The position numbers were made by a program, and so were the translations under genes. Positions 3,363 through 63,196 of a DNA stretch of 64,000 nucleotides are shown here, piece by piece. How positions within the stretch are numbered: the first letter of the stretch is position 1; each line of letters begins with the position of its first letter. The stretch comes from Trueperaceae bacterium (GTDB taxonomy: Bacteria > Deinococcota > Deinococci > Deinococcales > Trueperaceae), in the NCBI GenBank assembly GCA_020354625.1, contig CP070651.1:3010239-3074238 (forward strand), in the 5' to 3' direction. The notes beneath the pieces were generated by a model that saw only the letters and a list, made by a program, of their open reading frames with translations, was not told the DNA's origin and made no database searches.

Positions 3363-4670
3363 TCAATCCCGTTCGATATGAAGATCGAGAAAGTGGGTTG
3401 CGCATGAGATACACGGGTCGTAGTTGCGTATCGCCTGTTCACACTGCCACTGCAACTCGGCCGCTGGCAAGTCGACGTTCTTGGCGACAAAGGCGCGCAA
3501 ATCGCTCTCGACGCTCTTCTGATTCTGTGAGGTGGGTGGTATGATATTCGCGTCCAGAATCGTACCCTCGGCGTCCAAGGTGTAGCGGTGGTAGAGCATA
3601 CCTCGCGGCGCCTCGCTCCAACCGAAACCGGTACCCGCCTGGGGCTCGACCTTCACGAAGGGTTGCTCCGGCGGCTCATAGGCGTCGCTGATCCGCAACG
3701 CCTCCTCACAGGCCTAGACGAGTTCGACAGAACGCACCACGATGCTCATGAAGGGATTGCGGCAACTCGAACCCAGGCCCGCATCGCGCGCGCTTTGCTG
3801 CGCAAGCGGAGAGAGCTGGTCGAAGTTGAGGCTGTAGCGGGCTTGCGGGCCGACGAAGTATGCGCCCCGTTCCTTGATGCGGGCGTGCAGGGCGTTGCTG
3901 TGGGCGACGTGCTCTTCTTCGACATGAGATTCGAACTCCGCAGCCTCGATCGACAGGCCGCGATCAGATACCAAGATCCCATCTTCGATCGCATACTCTT
4001 CCGGATGCCGTAGTGCCACGAACTCATAGTCCTGGGTGAAGTCGGGAAAATCGAACCCGGCCACCCATCGAACCGTTTCCAAAGAGGCCTCTAATGCGCG
4101 CGCCAGTCGATCCCTCAAACCAGAAAGTTGACTCTCGGTCGGCACGCGGTAGAAACCACCCACGCGGACGTTGATCGGATGCACCGCACGGCCGCCGACA
4201 ACTTCCATGAGCTCGTTACCGGTCTTTTTGAGCTCCAAGCCGCGCTTGACGATCTCTGGGTGGTCCTTGGCGAGCTGCAAGGCATCTTGGTACCCGAAGA
4301 AATCCGGGGCGTGAAGCATGTAGACGTGTAAGGCGTGGCTCTGGATCCACTCTCCACAGTAAAGGAGCCTACGTAACCTGCGTAGCTGGCCGTCGACTTT
4401 CACACCACAGGCATCTTCGATGGCGTTGCAGGAACTGATCTGGTAGGCCACCGGACAGATTCCGCAGATGCGGGCGGTGATATCGGGCGGCTCTTTATGA
4501 GAGCGGCCGCGCAAAAAGGCCTCGAAGAAGCGCGGCGGTTCGTAGATATCCAGCCTCACATCCTTGACGACTCCGCCGCTGACCTTCACATAAAGAGCAC
4601 CTTCACCTTCAACCCGTGCCAGGGCGTCGACCTTGATGGTGCGGTTCTTGACGTTTCCCTCAGACATCAT
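3363..4670 (-). CDS. hydA: [NiFe]-hydrogenase large (alpha) subunit, interrupted by an in-frame TAG
   Basis: Catalytic subunit of a group 3b-type cytoplasmic bidirectional NADP-linked hydrogenase; it holds the NiFe(CN)2CO centre. Both cysteine motifs are present: [11 protein letters not shown] (Cys69, Cys72) and DPCISCATH near the C-terminus (about Cys420, Cys423). [10 protein letters not shown] tail that the maturation protease should remove follows. The reading frame is continuous for about 435 codons except for codon 319, which is TAG (3714-3716); the flanking SVELV and [10 protein letters not shown] lie in the same frame, so this is a nonsense codon and not a frameshift. Homologs commonly have Tyr here (from memory), one base from TAG. 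If real, the product lacks two of the four nickel ligands. The start ATG at 4670 overlaps the end of hydD. A second ATG at 4667 is equally possible. Confidence 0.85.
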
Positions 4671-5442
4671 GCACTTCACTCTCTTCGCGAAATGCCGTGG
4701 CGTTGGTGTTGAAGGTTCTAAGCGCCCGCAACACATCCTCTTCGCTCGCACCCAAGCGTTCCAACCACCACGCGGACAGCGAGCCGGCGTTCGGGCTCTC
4801 CATCGGCCCGAAACACCCGAAGCACCCGCGCGCAAAGGACGGGCACAGCGCCCCACAGCCGGCCTGGGTCACAGGGCCCAGGCAAGGGGTTCGACCCGCC
4901 ACCATCACGCAGACGGCACCCCTTCGTTTACACTCCATGCAGACGCTATAAGGCGACACGTTCGGCTTTCGGCCGTTCAAAAAAGCGTTGACTACCTCGA
5001 GAAGCTGCCCCTTGTCGATGGGGCAACCACGCAATTCGAAGTCGACAGCGACGTGATCGCTGATCGGTGTCGAGGTCTCGAGCGTATCGATGTAGTCTGG
5101 GCGAGCATAGACGAGGTCCACAAAATCGGCTACGTCCTTGAAATTGCGCAACGCTTGAATCCCCCCGGAGGTCGCGCAGGCGCCAATAGTGATCAGAGCT
5201 TCGGATTCGTCCCGGATCTTCTTGATGCGCTCGACGTCGTGTGGGGTGGTGATCGACCCCTCGACCAACGAGAGATCGAAGGGGCCCTTGACGGTCGCCC
5301 GGGTCGCTTCGAGAAAATAGGCGATCTCGATCTTTTCCGAAAGGGGGAGGAGTTCGTCCTCGCAGTCGAGCAGCGTCAACTGGCACCCGTCGCACGAGGC
5401 GAACTTCCAGACGGCGAGCTTGGGCTTTTTCGAACGCGCCAT
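4660..5442 (-). CDS. hydD: [NiFe]-hydrogenase small (delta) subunit
   Basis: A 260-residue iron-sulfur subunit that carries electrons between the NiFe centre and the flavin subunit. The proximal-cluster motif FASCDGCQ (Cys17, Cys20) is followed by the family segments [22 protein letters not shown] and [18 protein letters not shown], then GCFGCFGP. There is no twin-arginine signal and no membrane anchor, as expected for a cytoplasmic group 3 enzyme. The ORF end overlaps the hydA start by about 10 bases and the start lies 1-2 bases from the hydG stop, so the genes are translationally coupled. Length is normal for the family. Confidence 0.93.
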
Positions 5443-5443
5443 C

Positions 5444-6310
5444 TTAGACCTCCCTCACTTTCATGAGCGGTGCAACCAGACTGAAGGGGAAGACGGGGCC
5501 GTCTTTGCATACGAAATGTGGACCGAACTGGCAATGTCCGCAAAACCCCACAGCACACTTCATGTTCCGCTCCTGAGACACGTAGATCTGATCTCGGGCC
5601 ATCCCCCTTTTTTCCAACTCGAGAGCAGAGTAGCGCATCATGATCTCGGGACCGCAAATCACCGCGCTGGCGTGCGATACATCGAACTGAACACGCGGGA
5701 TGAGCGTGGTCACCACCCCGACATTTCCCCGCCAGGCTACCGTGCCCCTATCCACGGTAAGGTGGACCTCGAGAGCCGTCTTCTCATCCCACTTGGCCAA
5801 CTGTTTTTGAAAGAGCAGATCTCCCGGTGTCCTGGCACCGTAGAGGAGAACCAACCTCCCATAACGCCGGCGCTCTGACAATAGGTGGTGAATCAGCGGT
5901 CGCAGTGGGGCCAAACCGATACCACCAGCTACGATGATCACGTCTTGTCGTTGTAACGCCTCAAACGGCCAAGAACTGCCGTAAGGACCGCGAAGACCCA
6001 CGACATCACCGACTTTGAGCTCCTTCATAGCAGTGGTCACGGTGCCGAGAGCACGTACGGTGTGAGCGAGCAGCTCTGGCCGCGCCGGATCTCCGCTGAT
6101 CGATATGGGGACCTCACCGATCCCGAAGAGATAGAGCATGTTGAACTGCCCCGGTCGGAATCCGTGCGGTTCCTCATCGCCGAGCGGGACGAGCTCTAGC
6201 GTAAACGTATCGTAGTTCTCCTCGCGCCTACCTGCGATTCGATACGGTTGGGGCACCATCGGGTCGTTCACGTGAGGTGCAGTAAATGCAGGGTTAGGCG
6301 GGAGCGCCAT
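5444..6310 (-). CDS. hydG: Hydrogenase FAD/NAD(P)-binding (gamma) subunit
   Basis: A 288-residue ferredoxin-reductase-like subunit that passes electrons between NAD(P)H and the hydrogenase. The FAD-binding barrel occupies roughly residues 15-115 ([20 protein letters not shown] is the typical group 3b form). The NAD(P)-binding half starts with [16 protein letters not shown]-terminal [2Fe-2S] motif is seen in [14 protein letters not shown] with a further Cys after HFV. I chose ATG 6310 over the frame's upstream start because the upstream codons lie inside the preceding gene; it overlaps that gene by 17 bases. Order and overlap show a single operon with hydB, hydD and hydA. Confidence 0.92.
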
Positions 6311-6761
6311 AAAGATCCAGACACTGCAAGCGGGCCGCTTGGAGGCGCCCAACCATGACTTCGGCGAAGCGGCTCATCAGTTGGTAGCCGAGCTCGTGGT
6401 CGGCGTCGCACTTTTCGCGCACACATACGCCGTCGAATGCGAACGCCCGCACCAGCGATAGCGCGCGTGCATCGAAGTGCCAGGTATAGGGTGGGAACAA
6501 CCAAGACCAGCCCAAAACATCGTCTTCATGGAGGCTCTGAAAACGTATCTGGCCCTTTCTCGGCCCGTGGACTTCTAAAGCCACTTGGCCGTAACGTAAC
6601 AGATAGAAGACCCCAGCCTTTTCTCCCTCACGAAAGATAAAGGTCCCCTGATCAAAGAGGACATTCTTGGCACAGCCGGCAAGGAACACCAGATGCTTCT
6701 CGTCCATGCCCCTGAAAAAGGCGTGTTGCGCCAAGCTACGACTCAAATCGCGCGTCACCAT
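6294..6761 (-). CDS. Cyclic-nucleotide-binding-domain protein of the hydrogenase operon
   Basis: A 155-residue protein consisting of a single Crp/cNMP-binding jelly-roll (about residues 12-130: [58 protein letters not shown]). There is no helix-turn-helix after it, so it is not a classical transcription factor. Similar domains occur in group 3b hydrogenase operons, where they may regulate or help assemble the complex; this role is inferred. The start ATG directly follows the hydB stop with no gap, and the end overlaps hydG. Confidence 0.82.
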
Positions 6762-55835: not shown

Positions 55836-58800
55836 CTACTGCTCTGACGAGTCGAGCTCGCCGGTTTCCACGGTGTCCGTTCCCGTGAGCAGCTCGAGCA
55901 AGGCCTCAAGCTCGTATCCACTCTCCAACTCCACCTCGAAAAGACTATGCTCAAGATCGCGCAACGGTGAGGGATCCCTGTTGTCTGAACGCCACACGAG
56001 CCGTACTACCGCCAGCAAGGTTCTGATGAGCAAGCGATAGGCCTCGCGACTAAACCAGTAGGTCCCCTCCGCTTTGTGAACCCGCAAATAGTCGCGCACA
56101 TCGCTATCATCGAATAGTGGCGCAAACGCAGCTTTTTCCAATGCCTCTTGTTCGGCGAGGGATTCTGCATACCGCAAGACCAATCCAGCGAGCAGGCCAA
56201 ACCGTGTGGGACTCGCATCGAGGGATGGTGCTTCGGCTTGAACTTCGCTTTCAAACACCGTTGCGAGACGTAAAGCGCTCCAATGCTCCATCGCCCGTGG
56301 TAAGGAGCCGACCACCAACCAGGCGATCAACACCGGTACGAGTCCGTCCTCGACAGTCTTTCCAGAGTCGAGGAAGCGCCACAAGGTCAGAGAGCGCTGC
56401 TTCGATTCGTCGGAAAACGGACCGGGTCCATACACCGCGGCGTGGTCGATAAAAGCATCGTACGCCGCTTGAAACACCACCTTTGAAGAGGACGGCTCCA
56501 TGTCCACAAGGCGCTTGAAGCTTAGGTGCAATGGCCGCAGACGGAGCAAGGTGAGGGCCTCGTCGACACTCGGAACCCCCTCACCGGCAAGATCCTCGCA
56601 GAGCCGGCGATACCAATCTTCAGCGCTGTCTTGAAGCTCCTGGATATCCAAAAAAACCTGATACTTGAAGGCCCCGAGTTCAACGTAGAGCCCCCGCTCG
56701 ACCACCTCATCACTCGACCTTAAATACTCGAGACCACTCACGTGATCGCGCAGCAACAGGTAGCGCCCTGCATCACCCGATATAGCGAGTCCTTCGGCGA
56801 GAGAGCGTTCAACGGCTTCTTCAGATTCGGATGCTTTGATGGGAACGCTCTTTTTCAACCACCCTTTGGTCTCGGCAAAACGGTTGTGGAAAAGCACCAA
56901 CGAAACCCGATCACCGTGACGATTCGAGTAAGCAAAAACGTCTTCGTTGACGCTCCCCTCAGGAGTCATGAGGTCGTAGAGCGCAAAATCGTCTACCTCG
57001 GCGAATTCTTGTCTTCGCCTTAAGAGCGGAAAGATCTCGCGGCGGTGCCGTGCCAGCAACACCTCATCCACCGCCTCCTGCAATTTGGACCTTCGATACT
57101 CCATGCCGTACTTCTCTTCGAAACCCTCGATCTGACCGTGGCCGAACATGGGCAAGCCAGGCATGGTGCACATAAGCGTGCAGACGCCGAAGTACTTGTC
57201 ATCCTTGCCGAACTGTGCGATCGCCGGCTCTTCGTCCGGGTTGTTCATGAAGTTGACAAAACGCTTGAGGATCTGTGGCTCGAACGCCAACACGTTCTTG
57301 ATGACCTGCCGGTACTTCTGATTCTCCTCACGCTTCAGCATGTTCATAAAGGCACTGTTGTAGACGCGGTGCATCCCGAGCGTACGCACGAAGTAACCCT
57401 CCATCATCCAAAACGCCTCTGCCAAAAGAAGGGTGTCGGGTACTTCCTCGGCAACACGGTCTACGACTTCGCGCCAGAACTCGTCGGGGAGGAGCTCATC
57501 GAATCTTTCAGCAGATACGCTTCCGTGTTGAGCGCGCGAGGGGATGGCGCCTCCTTGGCCCGGCTCGGGAAACCACAAGCGCTGGATATGCTGCTTGGCG
57601 AGCGTCATAGCGGCGTCGAAGCGGATGATGGGAAACATTCGCGCGACCTGCAAGATGGTCTGGATCACGGCCTCACGAACCTCGGCGTTGAGGTAGTCGA
57701 GTTGGGCGGTGTCGTTCCAAGGCATCGAGGTGCCGTCGTTACCGTGATAGATATAACGTGCTTCACCCGTATCGCGGTCGAGGCGTTTAAAAACCACGGC
57801 GGCATCCGAATGGTCGTAGTAGTGATCTTCGAGAAAAATGCCCACCCGCTGGTCCGAACATAGGTCCGGGCCCTCAAAGCTGTAGCTCGGATAGGGCGGG
57901 TGAGCGAGTTGTACAAACCAGTCGGGGTGCTCCACAACCCAGTGCGCATCGATTCCCACGTGATTCGGCACCATGTCGCTCGCCAGTCGAATACCCCTCT
58001 GCCAAGCACGATCACGCAAATTGAGATAGGCTGGGTGACCACCCAGCACATCAGCGATCTGATAATCGTAAAGAGCGTATGCCGATGCTAGTGCATCGGT
58101 CTGATTCCGCACATGTTTGATACGCCGGGACGCTTCGCTGCGCTGCCACAAACCGATCAACCACAGACCTGAAAACCCCGCACGGGCGATCTCATCGAGT
58201 ACCTCGTCGGGAATCTGGTCGAGGCGGTGAATCCCTTGCTGATAACGCCTCGAAAGTTGATCGAGCCACACGTGCGTACTCTTGGCCAAGAGCACTACTC
58301 GCGGCATCCATGAGCGATCGGGGCTAAAGCGCCGAACCTCCTTTGGGCCTCGGTCCGGACCCCGCAGATCCTCGACCTCGAGTAGAGCGCTGGGACCGGG
58401 TCCGCCAAACTCCGGCCGGTCTTCTTCACGTAAGATGTCTACAGATGTGAGCAGCCTCTCGAACAGTACTTCATAATCAGCACCCAAAAGCGCGCCCCAC
58501 TTCTCGCGTATAAAATTGAGTTGCCCGATGAGTGAGGTAGGGCTTGCCAACGCGGGCGCCCGCAACAGATCGAAGAGCGACTCGGAACCCTCCAACTCCG
58601 GCTGTTCCGAAACGAACCGCTGCAAGACGTCGATCGCTTCAGTATAGGCACTATCCGATGCCAACGACGCATCGTCGAATAGCTCTTGAAACCGCTCGAG
58701 GGCTGGGTTCTGATTGGCGATCCAGAGCATCAGCATCTCCTCGAGGGCGATGACGGCGTTCGACTCCCCTCCAACATCAGCCGTCAGATAGGCCTCGACG

Positions 58801-59243
58801 CTCAGCTCACCTCTCGCCACCGCGACGGTAGGGAAAGCAGTGGCAAACTTTAACAGCGTCTCGCGATACTCACTCCCCAATTCAGCAGCAAGCTGTCTAT
58901 CGGCATGAACAAAAAGTTGTGGGCCGACCTGCTCTCTATAGCGCGCTACCACCAGATGCAAAATCTCATCGATCAGGCCGGCAGCATAGAGATCTCCTGC
59001 CTTTACGCTCACTTCCGGAAAGTGTTTCGCGTCTCGCACGGTGTTGATCGACTGCGCGAGTTTCTGAGCAGCAGCGAGATCGGCTAGAAGCACCGTGCCG
59101 CGAAGCGATACGAGACTCTCGTCGAGCTCATATTTGGTACGCATGGCACCAGAAATGTGAAATTCCCGATACAACCGAGCTGCTGAGGAGGGTAGTGCGA
59201 AGACCATCACGTTGGACATATCGATCGGCTCTTGTCGTATCAT
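55836..59243 (-). CDS. Large GH13 (alpha-amylase) family protein of unknown specificity
   Basis: A 1135-residue protein. Residues 1-300 are largely helical with no family I recognise. A GH13 barrel follows at about 315-800: region I DMVPNH (423-428), region II RFDAAM (nucleophile Asp543) and region III LLAEAF (general acid Glu609). Region IV, normally F-x-x-N-H-D, reads FMNNPDEE (665-672), so the usual His is Asn and a Pro is inserted before the Asp. The C-terminal 330 residues are again helical. No signal peptide is visible. It is divergent from treS, so it probably acts on maltose, trehalose or glycogen-derived glucans inside the cell. TreY was considered and not supported. Confidence 0.85.
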   Translation of the reverse strand: MIRQEPIDMSNVMVFALPSSAARLYREFHISGAMRTKYELDESLVSLRGTVLLADLAAAQKLAQSINTVRDAKHFPEVSVKAGDLYAAGLIDEILHLVVARYREQVGPQLFVHADRQLAAELGSEYRETLLKFATAFPTVAVARGELSVEAYLTADVGGESNAVIALEEMLMLWIANQNPALERFQELFDDASLASDSAYTEAIDVLQRFVSEQPELEGSESLFDLLRAPALASPTSLIGQLNFIREKWGALLGADYEVLFERLLTSVDILREEDRPEFGGPGPSALLEVEDLRGPDRGPKEVRRFSPDRSWMPRVVLLAKSTHVWLDQLSRRYQQGIHRLDQIPDEVLDEIARAGFSGLWLIGLWQRSEASRRIKHVRNQTDALASAYALYDYQIADVLGGHPAYLNLRDRAWQRGIRLASDMVPNHVGIDAHWVVEHPDWFVQLAHPPYPSYSFEGPDLCSDQRVGIFLEDHYYDHSDAAVVFKRLDRDTGEARYIYHGNDGTSMPWNDTAQLDYLNAEVREAVIQTILQVARMFPIIRFDAAMTLAKQHIQRLWFPEPGQGGAIPSRAQHGSVSAERFDELLPDEFWREVVDRVAEEVPDTLLLAEAFWMMEGYFVRTLGMHRVYNSAFMNMLKREENQKYRQVIKNVLAFEPQILKRFVNFMNNPDEEPAIAQFGKDDKYFGVCTLMCTMPGLPMFGHGQIEGFEEKYGMEYRRSKLQEAVDEVLLARHRREIFPLLRRRQEFAEVDDFALYDLMTPEGSVNEDVFAYSNRHGDRVSLVLFHNRFAETKGWLKKSVPIKASESEEAVERSLAEGLAISGDAGRYLLLRDHVSGLEYLRSSDEVVERGLYVELGAFKYQVFLDIQELQDSAEDWYRRLCEDLAGEGVPSVDEALTLLRLRPLHLSFKRLVDMEPSSSKVVFQAAYDAFIDHAAVYGPGPFSDESKQRSLTLWRFLDSGKTVEDGLVPVLIAWLVVGSLPRAMEHWSALRLATVFESEVQAEAPSLDASPTRFGLLAGLVLRYAESLAEQEALEKAAFAPLFDDSDVRDYLRVHKAEGTYWFSREAYRLLIRTLLAVVRLVWRSDNRDPSPLRDLEHSLFEVELESGYELEALLELLTGTDTVETGELDSSEQ

Positions 59244-59356: not shown

Positions 59357-61018
59357 ATGCCGAGTGGAAAAGAAGGGGACAAATCGCTAAAGGGGCTGCC
59401 GTGGTTCAAAACCTCGATCCTCTACGAACTATACGTCCGAGCCTTCAAAGACTCCGACGGTGACGGTCATGGCGATCTAAAAGGTGTGATCGAAAAACTC
59501 GACTATATCGCCAGCTTGGGGATCGATGTGATCTGGCTACTCCCCATCTCCCCTTCCCCACTTCGCGACGATGGGTACGATGTCACGGACTACTACGACA
59601 TCCACGAACAGTACGGAACCCTCGAGGATTTCAAACTCCTCATCAGAGAGGCCCACAAGCGGAAGCTGAAGGTCATTACCGACCTTGTCATGAACCATAC
59701 CAGCAGCGATCATCCGTGGTTTCAAAGCTCGAGGAGGGGTCCAGACCAGCCGAAGGGGAACTGGTACGTCTGGAGTGATGATCCGGAACGCTATAGCGGT
59801 ACACGCGTCATCTTCACCGACACCGAATCCTCGAACTGGTCGTTCGATCCCCTGCGCAAGCAATATTACTGGCACCGTTTCTTCAGCCACCAACCCGACC
59901 TCAACTTCGACAACTCCGAGGTACGCCGGGAGATGAAGCGGGTCGTGCGCTTCTGGCTCGAGCTGGGCATCGACGGATTCCGGTTCGACGCCATCCCTTA
60001 CCTCTTCGAACGAGAGGGGACAAACAACGAAAACTTGAGCGAAACGCACGCCTTTCTCAGGGAACTCAGGGCGTATATCGACGAGCTCAAACCCGACGCC
60101 TTCCTGCTCGGTGAGGTCAACCAGTGGCCCGAAGACACCGTGCCATACTTTGGGACCGGTACCGACGAGATCCCTTTGCTCTTTCACTTTCCCGTGATGC
60201 CCAGGCTCTTCAAAGCCGTCGCCGAAGGTGTACGAGACAGCGTAGAGTGGATTCTCGAGCGCACACCCGATATTCCGAAACCTTGCCAGTGGGTCATCTT
60301 CTTGCGCAACCACGACGAACTCACGCTCGAGATGGTAACGCCTGAAGAACGCAACTTCCTGTACCAGACCTATGCACCAGAGCCACGCATGAGGCTGAAT
60401 TTGGGCATTCGCCGCCGGCTAGCACCACTGCTCGGCAACGACATGCGGAAGATCAAGCTGATGAATTCGTTATTGTTGACGTTGCCAGGGACGCCGATCC
60501 TCTATTATGGAGATGAGATCGGCATGGGTGATCACATCTGGCTGGACGACCGCAACGGGGTAAGGACCCCCATGCAGTGGCAAGAGACCGAAAACGCCGG
60601 CTTCAGTACAGCCGAAGAGCTGTTTGCTCCGGTAGTCGACGATGCGGTATACGGGTACCGTCACCGCAACGTCGACGTTCAGGAGCGCGATCCGGAAAGC
60701 CTGCTCCACTGGATGCGCACCGCCATCAGGACAAGACGCCGGCACCCGAGCCTCGGCGCCGGCAGCTTCGAGCTCATGACGCCTGCCAACAGGGCGATCC
60801 TGGCGTTTATTCGCGAGCTATCGTCCGATCGTCTGCTGGCTATCCACAACCTCTCGGGTGCCGCTCAACAGTTCGACCTCGATCTGGAACGCTTCGAGAG
60901 CCGGCCGATCACGGATGCCTTCTCTCAGCGTCGCGTTGGGTCCGGCCAGCACCGGACAGAGTTCGAGCTCGAGCCGTACGGTTTCAGCTGGTTCGCCCTC
61001 GAAGGGGATGAAAGGTGA
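59357..61018 (+). CDS. treS: Trehalose synthase (maltose alpha-D-glucosyltransferase)
   Basis: A 553-residue GH13 enzyme that interconverts maltose and trehalose. Catalytic residues are Asp211 (GFRFDAIPYL), Glu253 (LLGEVNQ) and Asp320 (FLRNHDELTLEM). The segments FKTSILYELYVRAFKDSDGDGHGD and MNHTSSDHPWFQ are typical of TreS. It lacks the fused maltokinase domain. GGAGGG lies before the ATG. The product overlaps the next gene by one base and begins a four-gene coupled run. It may supply the protectant trehalose or start the GlgE route. Confidence 0.93.
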   Translation: MPSGKEGDKSLKGLPWFKTSILYELYVRAFKDSDGDGHGDLKGVIEKLDYIASLGIDVIWLLPISPSPLRDDGYDVTDYYDIHEQYGTLEDFKLLIREAHKRKLKVITDLVMNHTSSDHPWFQSSRRGPDQPKGNWYVWSDDPERYSGTRVIFTDTESSNWSFDPLRKQYYWHRFFSHQPDLNFDNSEVRREMKRVVRFWLELGIDGFRFDAIPYLFEREGTNNENLSETHAFLRELRAYIDELKPDAFLLGEVNQWPEDTVPYFGTGTDEIPLLFHFPVMPRLFKAVAEGVRDSVEWILERTPDIPKPCQWVIFLRNHDELTLEMVTPEERNFLYQTYAPEPRMRLNLGIRRRLAPLLGNDMRKIKLMNSLLLTLPGTPILYYGDEIGMGDHIWLDDRNGVRTPMQWQETENAGFSTAEELFAPVVDDAVYGYRHRNVDVQERDPESLLHWMRTAIRTRRRHPSLGAGSFELMTPANRAILAFIRELSSDRLLAIHNLSGAAQQFDLDLERFESRPITDAFSQRRVGSGQHRTEFELEPYGFSWFALEGDER

Positions 61019-61833
61019 TGATCGAAACGAAAGCGTTATTGTCAAGAGGTCTCGCCCCGATACTATGGCTCCTACTACTCGTTTCCTGCACGAGCGAGAT
61101 CGCAACGCCTGGCGAGACACTCCGTATTTTTGGAAGATCACTGCCGCCGGCGTTCATCGACGAACCCTACAACACGACCATCCAGGTCGTCGGCGGCCTC
61201 AGACCGTTCACCTTTTCGGTGGAGTCGGGAACGCTCCCTCCAGGTATCAGCCTCCAAGCAGGTACCCTACAAGGTATCCCGAGCAACCTCGGTACGTTCA
61301 CGTTCACCATTACCGTCTCGGACGCCAACCTCTCGCGCACCTTCCAAGAGTATTCTTTGCGGGTGAGCGAACCTCCACCGGCGGAGTTCAGTCTGAATGT
61401 TCCCTCTACCGAATTACAGCGCCCTACGACGTTACGGGCCGTCGTTCGCAACGCACGAAATCTTCAGGCTCTGCGCACCGCAATTCGCTGGGATACAGAG
61501 CTCTTCGAGCTGACACCGGGGAGCATCCGGGCGACCAGCGAAGGGTTTGCGCTCTTTGCGAAGGAGGAGCCCGGGCAGCTTCAGATCGACCTAGCCGTGC
61601 TCGGGGGAACCATCGACGGAGAAGAGCGCGTCTTCAGCTTCGAGCTCCGTCCGCTCGAGCCCACCACCCTAGAGATCGTAAGCGACACCGAGTTTCTGTC
61701 TCAAGGTGGACGGCACGGCTTTGCCACGCTCCGAGAAGGCGTGGCACCTCCTGAGCCTAGCGAACCTCTTGAAGAGGACGGACCCCCCGAAGAAGAAGCT
61801 AGTGGTGAGGATGAGGAAGGTGAGATGCCGTGA
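61018..61833 (+). CDS. Lipoprotein with Ig-like and cohesin-like domains
   Basis: A 271-residue exported lipoprotein. The signal ends in LLLVSC with the lipidated Cys at 24. A putative Ig (He_PIG-type) domain spans about 38-115 (LPPAFIDEPYNTTIQV, GGLRPFTFSVESGTLPPGI, GTFTFTITVSDAN). The next domain (about 122-230) looks cohesin-like: LRAVVRNARNLQALRTAIRW, DTELFELTPGSI, then PGQLQIDLAVLGGTIDG and FSFELRPLEP. A 25-residue acidic Glu/Pro tail ends it. ATG 61018 overlaps the treS stop by one base. The third gene downstream has dockerin repeats, the usual partner of cohesins, so the two products may bind each other at the cell surface. Confidence 0.78.
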   Translation: MIETKALLSRGLAPILWLLLLVSCTSEIATPGETLRIFGRSLPPAFIDEPYNTTIQVVGGLRPFTFSVESGTLPPGISLQAGTLQGIPSNLGTFTFTITVSDANLSRTFQEYSLRVSEPPPAEFSLNVPSTELQRPTTLRAVVRNARNLQALRTAIRWDTELFELTPGSIRATSEGFALFAKEEPGQLQIDLAVLGGTIDGEERVFSFELRPLEPTTLEIVSDTEFLSQGGRHGFATLREGVAPPEPSEPLEEDGPPEEEASGEDEEGEMP

Positions 61834-62348
61834 GAAAACTAGTGCTCCTACTCGGCTTGCTCTGCCTGCCAGCGGCGCTTGCCACCACCTACCTGGAACT
61901 AGATTTCGAAACGATGACGACAAAGGCCGAGTTGGCTTTTTTCGGCACGGTTCGTACCGTGGCCGTCGAAGAACGCAGCGGTGATCCTTGGACAATCGTC
62001 TCATTCGATGTGGTGCAACGGTTCAAAGGGCTCGAGGAAGAGGTGCTGGAGCTCGAGCTGGCCTTCCTAGGAGGCGCCTTGCCAGATGGCACAAGCCTCA
62101 CCGTAAACCTGATGCCCCGCTTCGAAGCGGGTGAGGAGGTGCTCCTGTTCGCTTACAAACGAACAAGCTACTCACCGATTGTCGGCTTCCGGCAAGGTCT
62201 TTGGCGCCTGGGCGACCTCGGGTTTCGTGACGAGGCGGACCGCTTATTGACCGTCGATGACGAGGGAGCTCTACAACTCGATGGTGCCGGCACCAACAGA
62301 GAACTCGTGCTTGAAGCCCTCGTTACGTTATTCGAGGATGGGCCGTGA
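61830..62348 (+). CDS. Exported protein of unknown function in the cohesin/dockerin operon
   Basis: A 172-residue protein with a Sec signal peptide (KLVLLLGLLCLPAALA, cleaved at about 18). I do not recognise the family. The mature part has alternating beta-strand-like segments: AELAFFGTVRTVAVEE, PWTIVSFDVVQRFKGLEEEVLELELAFLGG, RFEAGEEVLLFAYKR, IVGFRQGLWRLGD. There are no cysteines in the mature part and no membrane helix. The GTG start lies inside the last codons of the lipoprotein gene (GTGA), and its own stop overlaps the next GTG start, showing translational coupling on both sides. Confidence 0.75.
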   Translation: MRKLVLLLGLLCLPAALATTYLELDFETMTTKAELAFFGTVRTVAVEERSGDPWTIVSFDVVQRFKGLEEEVLELELAFLGGALPDGTSLTVNLMPRFEAGEEVLLFAYKRTSYSPIVGFRQGLWRLGDLGFRDEADRLLTVDDEGALQLDGAGTNRELVLEALVTLFEDGP

Positions 62349-63196
62349 GACACCCTGCCCTCTTGGCGATCCTACTCGGCCTTACAACAGCGCTGGCCGT
62401 TACCTACCGAGTAGACCCCAGCGGAGGCCCTCTGACGCTGGCCGAAGATATCAGCTCAGCGTTCGAGAGCTGGTTCGAGGTTTCTCAAGATCTACTCGAA
62501 GCGATCGAAGACGACGCTGCCACCACCGAAGTGCGCTTTGGCGACCCAGCCCTGTTCGGACCAGACACGTTCTCGCTAACGGTACAGCGCAGTGGTGAAG
62601 AAGCTAGCGTTGAAGTCCTTTTCAACCCAACAGGCTACCGGGGACGACCCACGTCCCTCCTTCACGAAACGGGGATTCTGCTCGGCCTCGGTGCTTCCGG
62701 CAACGGCGTGATGCGAGCCGCTCTCAGCGACGACAGCCCGACGGAACCGACGGCAGAAGATATCGAGGCCTTGAACACCTTACGCACCTTCGCCCCTGAA
62801 GACCTCACCAAGGACGGTGTGGTCGATTTCTACGATCTAGCCGCCTTCGCAGAGCAATACGGGCGCCAAGGCGTCAACCTACCCGCCGACTTCGATAAGG
62901 ATGGCGTGGTCGGTGAAAACGATCTCTCCACGCTCCGGTCGGCATACACCTTCACGCCCCCTTCTCCGACGCCTCCGACCTCGCAACCGGAATCTGCTCT
63001 GGATTTCGAGAGTCCAGGCGAGGGGAGCGCGGACGCCGAGCCCGAAGCCGAGGCCGTCCCTGAGGGCAACGATGAACTGCCAGGAGGAGGGTTGGAGCCT
63101 GAAGACGAGCAGGAGGACGGTCCTTTGCAAGAGACTGATACCGATAAAGAGTCGTCTGGTGAGGCGAGCGAAGAGGAGAACGAAACGAGCGAGTAG
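62345..63196 (+). CDS. Exported protein with degenerate matrixin-like domain and two dockerin repeats
   Basis: A 283-residue protein. A signal peptide spans about 1-18 (ALLAILLGLTTALA). Residues 20-150 look like a matrixin metallopeptidase: TYRVDPSGGPLTLAEDISSAF at the start and PTAEDIEALNTL at the end. The zinc motif, normally HExGHxLGLxH, reads HETGILLGLGA (107-117), so two of the three His ligands are lost. Residues 153-201 contain two dockerin calcium loops, DLTKDGVVDFYDLAAF and DFDKDGVVGENDLSTL. A Pro linker and a very acidic tail of about 80 residues follow. The GTG start overlaps the previous stop. It is likely a non-catalytic surface protein held by the cohesin-like lipoprotein. Confidence 0.8.
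   Translation: MRHPALLAILLGLTTALAVTYRVDPSGGPLTLAEDISSAFESWFEVSQDLLEAIEDDAATTEVRFGDPALFGPDTFSLTVQRSGEEASVEVLFNPTGYRGRPTSLLHETGILLGLGASGNGVMRAALSDDSPTEPTAEDIEALNTLRTFAPEDLTKDGVVDFYDLAAFAEQYGRQGVNLPADFDKDGVVGENDLSTLRSAYTFTPPSPTPPTSQPESALDFESPGEGSADAEPEAEAVPEGNDELPGGGLEPEDEQEDGPLQETDTDKESSGEASEEENETSE

Follow-up and report, generated by a model that had tools for sequence, protein, structure and literature searches.

A likely non-cellulosomal cohesin-dockerin pair joining an envelope lipoprotein and a pseudo-protease in the Deinococcota

Cohesin and dockerin form a calcium-dependent clasp that is among the strongest natural protein clasps known and is best known from cellulose-digesting machines; outside cellulosomes its role is, to our knowledge, poorly understood. 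In a genome of the family Trueperaceae (4.29 Mb, a single contig) a trehalose synthase gene is followed by three overlapping genes, here called A, B and C, of which the first and last had been read as a cohesin-like lipoprotein and a dockerin-bearing secreted protein, raising the question as to whether these two are partners and what such a pair would do. We have examined the locus within a window of 64,000 nucleotides, the whole stretch of DNA analysed, together with related loci collected with a 10-member alignment. Families are denoted f1-f3 (the Trueperaceae and two neighbouring families) and f4-f5 (Thermaceae-type families).

The locus and its neighbours

The open reading frames, strand and overlaps of A, B and C after treS are as the first-pass annotation had given them, and the features of the locus are as follows, in window coordinates.

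59357-61018, + strand: treS, maltose alpha-D-glucosyltransferase / trehalose synthase (TIGR02456, E 1.3e-240, 799.5 bits); context only
61018-61833, + strand: gene A, lipoprotein with an Ig (He_PIG) and a cohesin-like domain; ATG start at 61018
61087-61089, + strand: lipobox cysteine of A (LVS/C), by sequence; invariant C25 in the A alignment
61162-61365, + strand: He_PIG Ig-like domain of A (PF05345, E 6.4e-10)
61384-61740, + strand: cohesin-like domain of A (profile against PDB, AlphaFold2, Foldseek)
61741-61830, + strand: acidic low-complexity tail of A, by sequence
61830-62348, + strand: gene B, secreted 172-aa protein of no known family (open reading frame; B-C fusions elsewhere)
62345-63196, + strand: gene C, secreted pseudo-matrixin with signal peptide, dockerin and acidic tail, by domain matches
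62399-62794, + strand: degenerate matrixin (M10 metzincin) domain of C (PF00413; profile against PDB)
62663-62695, + strand: degenerate zinc site of C, HETGILLGLGA (sequence, alignment columns)
62801-62956, + strand: dockerin of C (PF00404, NF041540; loop alignment)
62801-62836, + strand: dockerin Ca loop 1 of C, 12 residues, DLTKDGVVDFYD, by alignment
62888-62923, + strand: dockerin Ca loop 2 of C, 12 residues, DFDKDGVVGEND, by alignment
62957-63193, + strand: acidic low-complexity tail of C, by sequence

The start of A overlaps the treS stop codon (an alternative in-frame GTG start lies at 61015), and 4-nt overlaps (GTGA) occur at both the A/B and B/C junctions; 3′ of C lies a convergent gene for pterin-4a-carbinolamine dehydratase. 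The description of A as an anchored Ig protein is borne out by its lipobox (LVSC) and by the Pfam He_PIG match. A single-sequence structure model of B was uninformative (pLDDT 38.5). The strongly acidic tails ascribed to A and C are found in the window and in several Trueperaceae but not in other families, whose tails are Pro/Thr- or Pro/Ala-rich, and tail acidity is therefore a lineage feature.

The gene upstream of A is a genuine maltose alpha-D-glucosyltransferase. A functional coupling of the operon to trehalose synthase, which had also been proposed, is not upheld by comparison of related loci: treS lies directly 5′ of A in the window and at L113, L117, L122, L123, L127 and L128, together a minority of the Trueperaceae loci compared, and in none of the loci outside the family that were fetched with flanking sequence. 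Because the adjacency is not conserved, a coupling with trehalose metabolism is unlikely and was rejected, and the linkage to treS is probably local and incidental. In genus g30 of family f5, which is probably Thermus, the neighbours of A are nrdR, a short-chain dehydrogenase, a dCTP-deaminase-like gene, a cyclophilin and a histidyl-tRNA-synthetase-like gene. The window also encodes, at 55836-59243 on the minus strand and transcribed away from treS, a protein of 1135 aa whose alpha-amylase (GH13) domain is divergent; its position next to A is conserved in many Trueperaceae.

Domain identities of A and C

The cohesin proposed for A is not recovered by Pfam: PF00963 matched none of 28 A homologues and nothing in the window's genome, and a single-sequence search of Pfam and NCBIfam with the window's A did not find a cohesin. 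It does emerge, however, from two other approaches. A profile of the second domain, built from 13 Trueperaceae-family loci and compared with all PDB sequences, placed a Clostridium perfringens cohesin (2vo8) at the top with an E value of 2.5e-4, the runner-up being unrelated (E 0.97). An AlphaFold2 model, for which the input was the mature protein and eight relatives, had a pLDDT of 90.8 for mature A, and a Foldseek comparison of this model with the PDB likewise ranked 2vo8 first (E 1.5e-6, probability 1.00, TM 0.69 by target), with the cohesins 2jh2, 1qzn, 2xdh and 3l8q also listed. Many other Ig-like or Ig-type beta-sandwich folds score in the same comparison, and the sequence-profile match is therefore the more specific evidence; nonetheless, since 2vo8 ranks first in both, two different methods agree on a cohesin. 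Judged by family profile and by predicted fold, the second domain of A is a cohesin. For the A domains of the Thermaceae the resemblance to cohesins is weak, the E values lying between about 1e-5 and 6e-4 when the database held ~100 sequences. A fold search in a viral fold library returned nothing specific, and plasmid searches gave generic Ig proteins only, or no match.

The dockerin assigned to C was confirmed with its relatives. The window's C alone falls below the Pfam cut-off for PF00404 (E 0.014; 16 versus 22.9 bits); the same family matches all 17 C homologues (best E 9.5e-11), a C-family profile finds solved dockerins in the PDB (2y3n, E 1.8e-13), and in the alignment 16 of 17 members have two 12-residue calcium loops of canonical form. 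Some A proteins carry a dockerin of their own (the cis form, described below), and this has one calcium loop, the first loop being gone and the helix that follows it kept. Loop position 10 is hydrophobic throughout, with F in 96% of Trueperaceae, I, L or V in f2-f3, and F or Y in most proteins of the cis form despite the lost loop; such retention without a calcium loop is what one would expect if a contact face had been kept. Helix 1 ends with an aromatic residue, followed by Gly in most members, and the equivalent positions of repeat 2 are more variable than those of repeat 1. We infer from these patterns that helix 1 of the dockerin provides one conserved binding face.

Upstream of its dockerin, C carries a domain that is absent from the first-pass annotation. 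Pfam Matrixin (PF00413) matches four of 17 C homologues, one of them above the cut-off (best 24.6 versus 24 bits), and a profile of the N-terminal part of C gives 53 PDB matches up to an E value of 10 (best 0.0076), every one of which is a matrix metalloproteinase or a related M7 protease. The best of these align in two stretches that include the Met-turn region. Active matrixins have the zinc site HExxHxxGxxH; the corresponding motif of the window's C is HETGILLGLGA, and the second and third of the three zinc histidines are missing in 17 of 17 aligned members. The His-Glu pair is retained in most Trueperaceae, and in f2 and f3 the first histidine is gone as well. With these zinc-site histidines lost, the N-terminal part of C is, as far as can be judged from sequence, a catalytically dead matrixin.

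A second matrixin-like secreted protein is encoded elsewhere in the window's genome (L146:4340-5677; G000:C1 near 2,418,500). Its motif is EVGHALGLLGR, in which the first zinc histidine is replaced and the third is missing, and it too is therefore probably inactive.

Two arrangements across the Deinococcota

By profile search, 102 of the 111 Deinococcota genomes encode A, and nearly all of these have a single copy; in one genome there are two full copies, and another has an additional weak match. B is present in 44 of the genomes, all of them in f1-f3, and in no genome of f4 or f5. A census of the fetched loci separates two arrangements. In the trans arrangement, found at 35 loci, all in f1-f3, an A without a dockerin is followed by B and C, whereas in the cis arrangement, found at 49 loci, all in f4-f5, there is neither B nor C and a dockerin loop is found at the C terminus of A itself; these two counts are not independent, since the split follows deep clades and may have arisen from a single event. 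No locus in the census combines a dockerin-bearing A with B or C, and the remaining loci involve contig ends, frameshifted genes or degenerate-loop genes. The named trans members are Trueperaceae MAGs; those of the cis group are Meiothermus hypogaeus (whose contig stops before the dockerin), Meiothermus taiwanensis and a Meiothermus MAG.

All 35 complete trans loci have A, B and C on the same strand, and the 4-nt A/B overlap recurs in 24 of them. A survey for the triplet accordingly shows it to be conserved in 35 loci, which rules out a chance association. In eight genomes (loci L118, L219, L220, L221, L222, L223, L116 and L119) B is fused to the N-terminal side of C, the polypeptide running from B through an acidic Pro-rich linker to the pseudo-matrixin and the dockerin, and the otherwise uncharacterised B is hence physically linked to C.

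Additional dockerins were encountered at other loci. In some Trueperaceae subtilases (L156, L157 and L163) and a carbohydrate esterase of the SASA type (L162) bear dockerins and are possible clients of the A cohesin, although their dockerins are of a different type. Several genomes of genus g30 encode lipoproteins of ~650-750 aa, often as a tandem pair (L151:1387-3336 and 4119-6365, minus strand; also L149, L150 and L152-L155), with an N-terminal stretch that is cohesin-like by eye and a two-loop dockerin directly after it. Here there may be another cis cohesin-dockerin arrangement, independent of the first, although a search of the PDB with the N-terminal stretch as a single sequence did not confirm a cohesin. 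A large protein at L158 (G076:C352) has a dockerin-type and then a cohesin-like stretch and is otherwise of Bacteroidota style, and its contig is probably a contaminant in that MAG.

A proposed envelope clasp and its alternatives

Neither A nor C carries a sugar-degrading catalytic domain, as had been noted, and with a cohesin lipoprotein and a dockerin-bearing neighbour that both lack one, the suggestion of a non-cellulosomal surface assembly is plausible; nothing in the data points to the sensing role that had been put forward for it. We consider it likely that A and C constitute a one-to-one cohesin-dockerin clasp, by which a pseudo-protease is held in trans on an envelope lipoprotein, and that the clasp operates in cis in the relatives of Thermus. 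A would project one Ig domain and a single cohesin from the envelope, and C, secreted from the same operon, would dock on that cohesin through its calcium-loaded dockerin. Docking would hold the dead matrixin module at the envelope as a binding, structural or adhesive part and not as an enzyme, and B would be held there with C, to which it is sometimes covalently joined. In f4-f5 the dockerin on A may fold back on its own cohesin or link A molecules head to tail. Mirrortree-type partial correlations were 0.26 for cohesin and dockerin, 0.05 for Ig and dockerin, 0.37 for cohesin and matrixin, and 0.44 for Ig and matrixin.

A different account is that the dockerin-like EF-hand pair of C serves to bind calcium and stabilise the protein, or to dimerise it, and that the second domain of A is a generic beta-sandwich; A, B and C would then cooperate as products of one operon without cohesin-dockerin docking. 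This would fit the failure of the Pfam cohesin model to match any A member and the abundance of Ig-type beta-sandwiches among the Foldseek matches, but we regard it as unlikely, because the same cohesin heads the PDB by sequence profile and by fold and because a dockerin always accompanies the cohesin, either in trans or in cis. It is also conceivable, if improbable, that several surface enzymes with dockerins bind to A, which would then be their receptor and a scaffold resembling a small cellulosome, with C as only one client. Subtilases or a SASA-type esterase with dockerins are indeed encoded in some Trueperaceae, and since other dockerins are present in those related genomes the pairing there may not be exclusive; however, these dockerins differ in sequence type from that of C, A has a single cohesin, and the window's genome contains one clear dockerin.

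The matrixin relationship of C, together with the His-Glu pair retained in most Trueperaceae, might instead suggest that A anchors a protease with full or conditional activity. Given the loss of the second and third zinc histidines in all 17 aligned members, and of the first also in f2/f3, this seems very improbable, and C as an active protease was rejected on the grounds of its degenerate zinc site.

The proposed clasp shares with the cellulosomal scaffoldin and type I dockerin the cohesin fold and the two-loop dockerin, but it has a single cohesin and lacks a CBM, its locus encodes no CAZyme with a dockerin, and its pairing would be one-to-one. Across the window's genome a profile search finds one A-type cohesin domain, not the multiple cohesins of a scaffoldin, and the one clear dockerin is borne by the pseudo-matrixin C and not by a CAZyme. 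C. perfringens supplies the solved cohesin that is nearest by both profile and fold (2vo8, 2jh2), and it too has single cohesins outside a cellulosome, in its non-cellulosomal pairs (X82 cohesins). There it is glycoside hydrolases that bear the cohesins and dockerins (PMC12997984), whereas in the pair described here, which has no catalytic sugar domain, an Ig lipoprotein bears the cohesin and a pseudo-matrixin the dockerin. The cohesin of Archaeoglobus fulgidus (2xdh) is likewise a non-cellulosomal cohesin fold but differs in architecture and lineage. TMEM132 is membrane-attached, with a cohesin homologue joined to Ig-like domains and a predicted adhesion role (PMC6030884); it is eukaryotic, has no detectable vertebrate dockerin partner, and is offered as an analogue of A with no relationship claimed. 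We found no description of a Deinococcota cohesin-dockerin system in the literature searched, which did not include Peer et al. 2009, reportedly a survey of non-cellulosomal cohesin and dockerin modules.

Whether the pair is a near-universal Deinococcota envelope clasp, with one pair per genome, a dead metzincin as ligand and a switch between trans and cis at the deep split of the phylum, and so a piece of envelope architecture and not an enzyme assembly, is a broader proposition that we regard as evenly balanced. The system is phylum-wide and has no sugar-degrading partner, and culturable thermophiles provide it naturally both as two proteins and as one; the role of a non-cellulosomal cohesin-dockerin pair would therefore be directly testable. 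The Thermaceae may in addition be a source of heat-stable versions, with possible use in designed assemblies.
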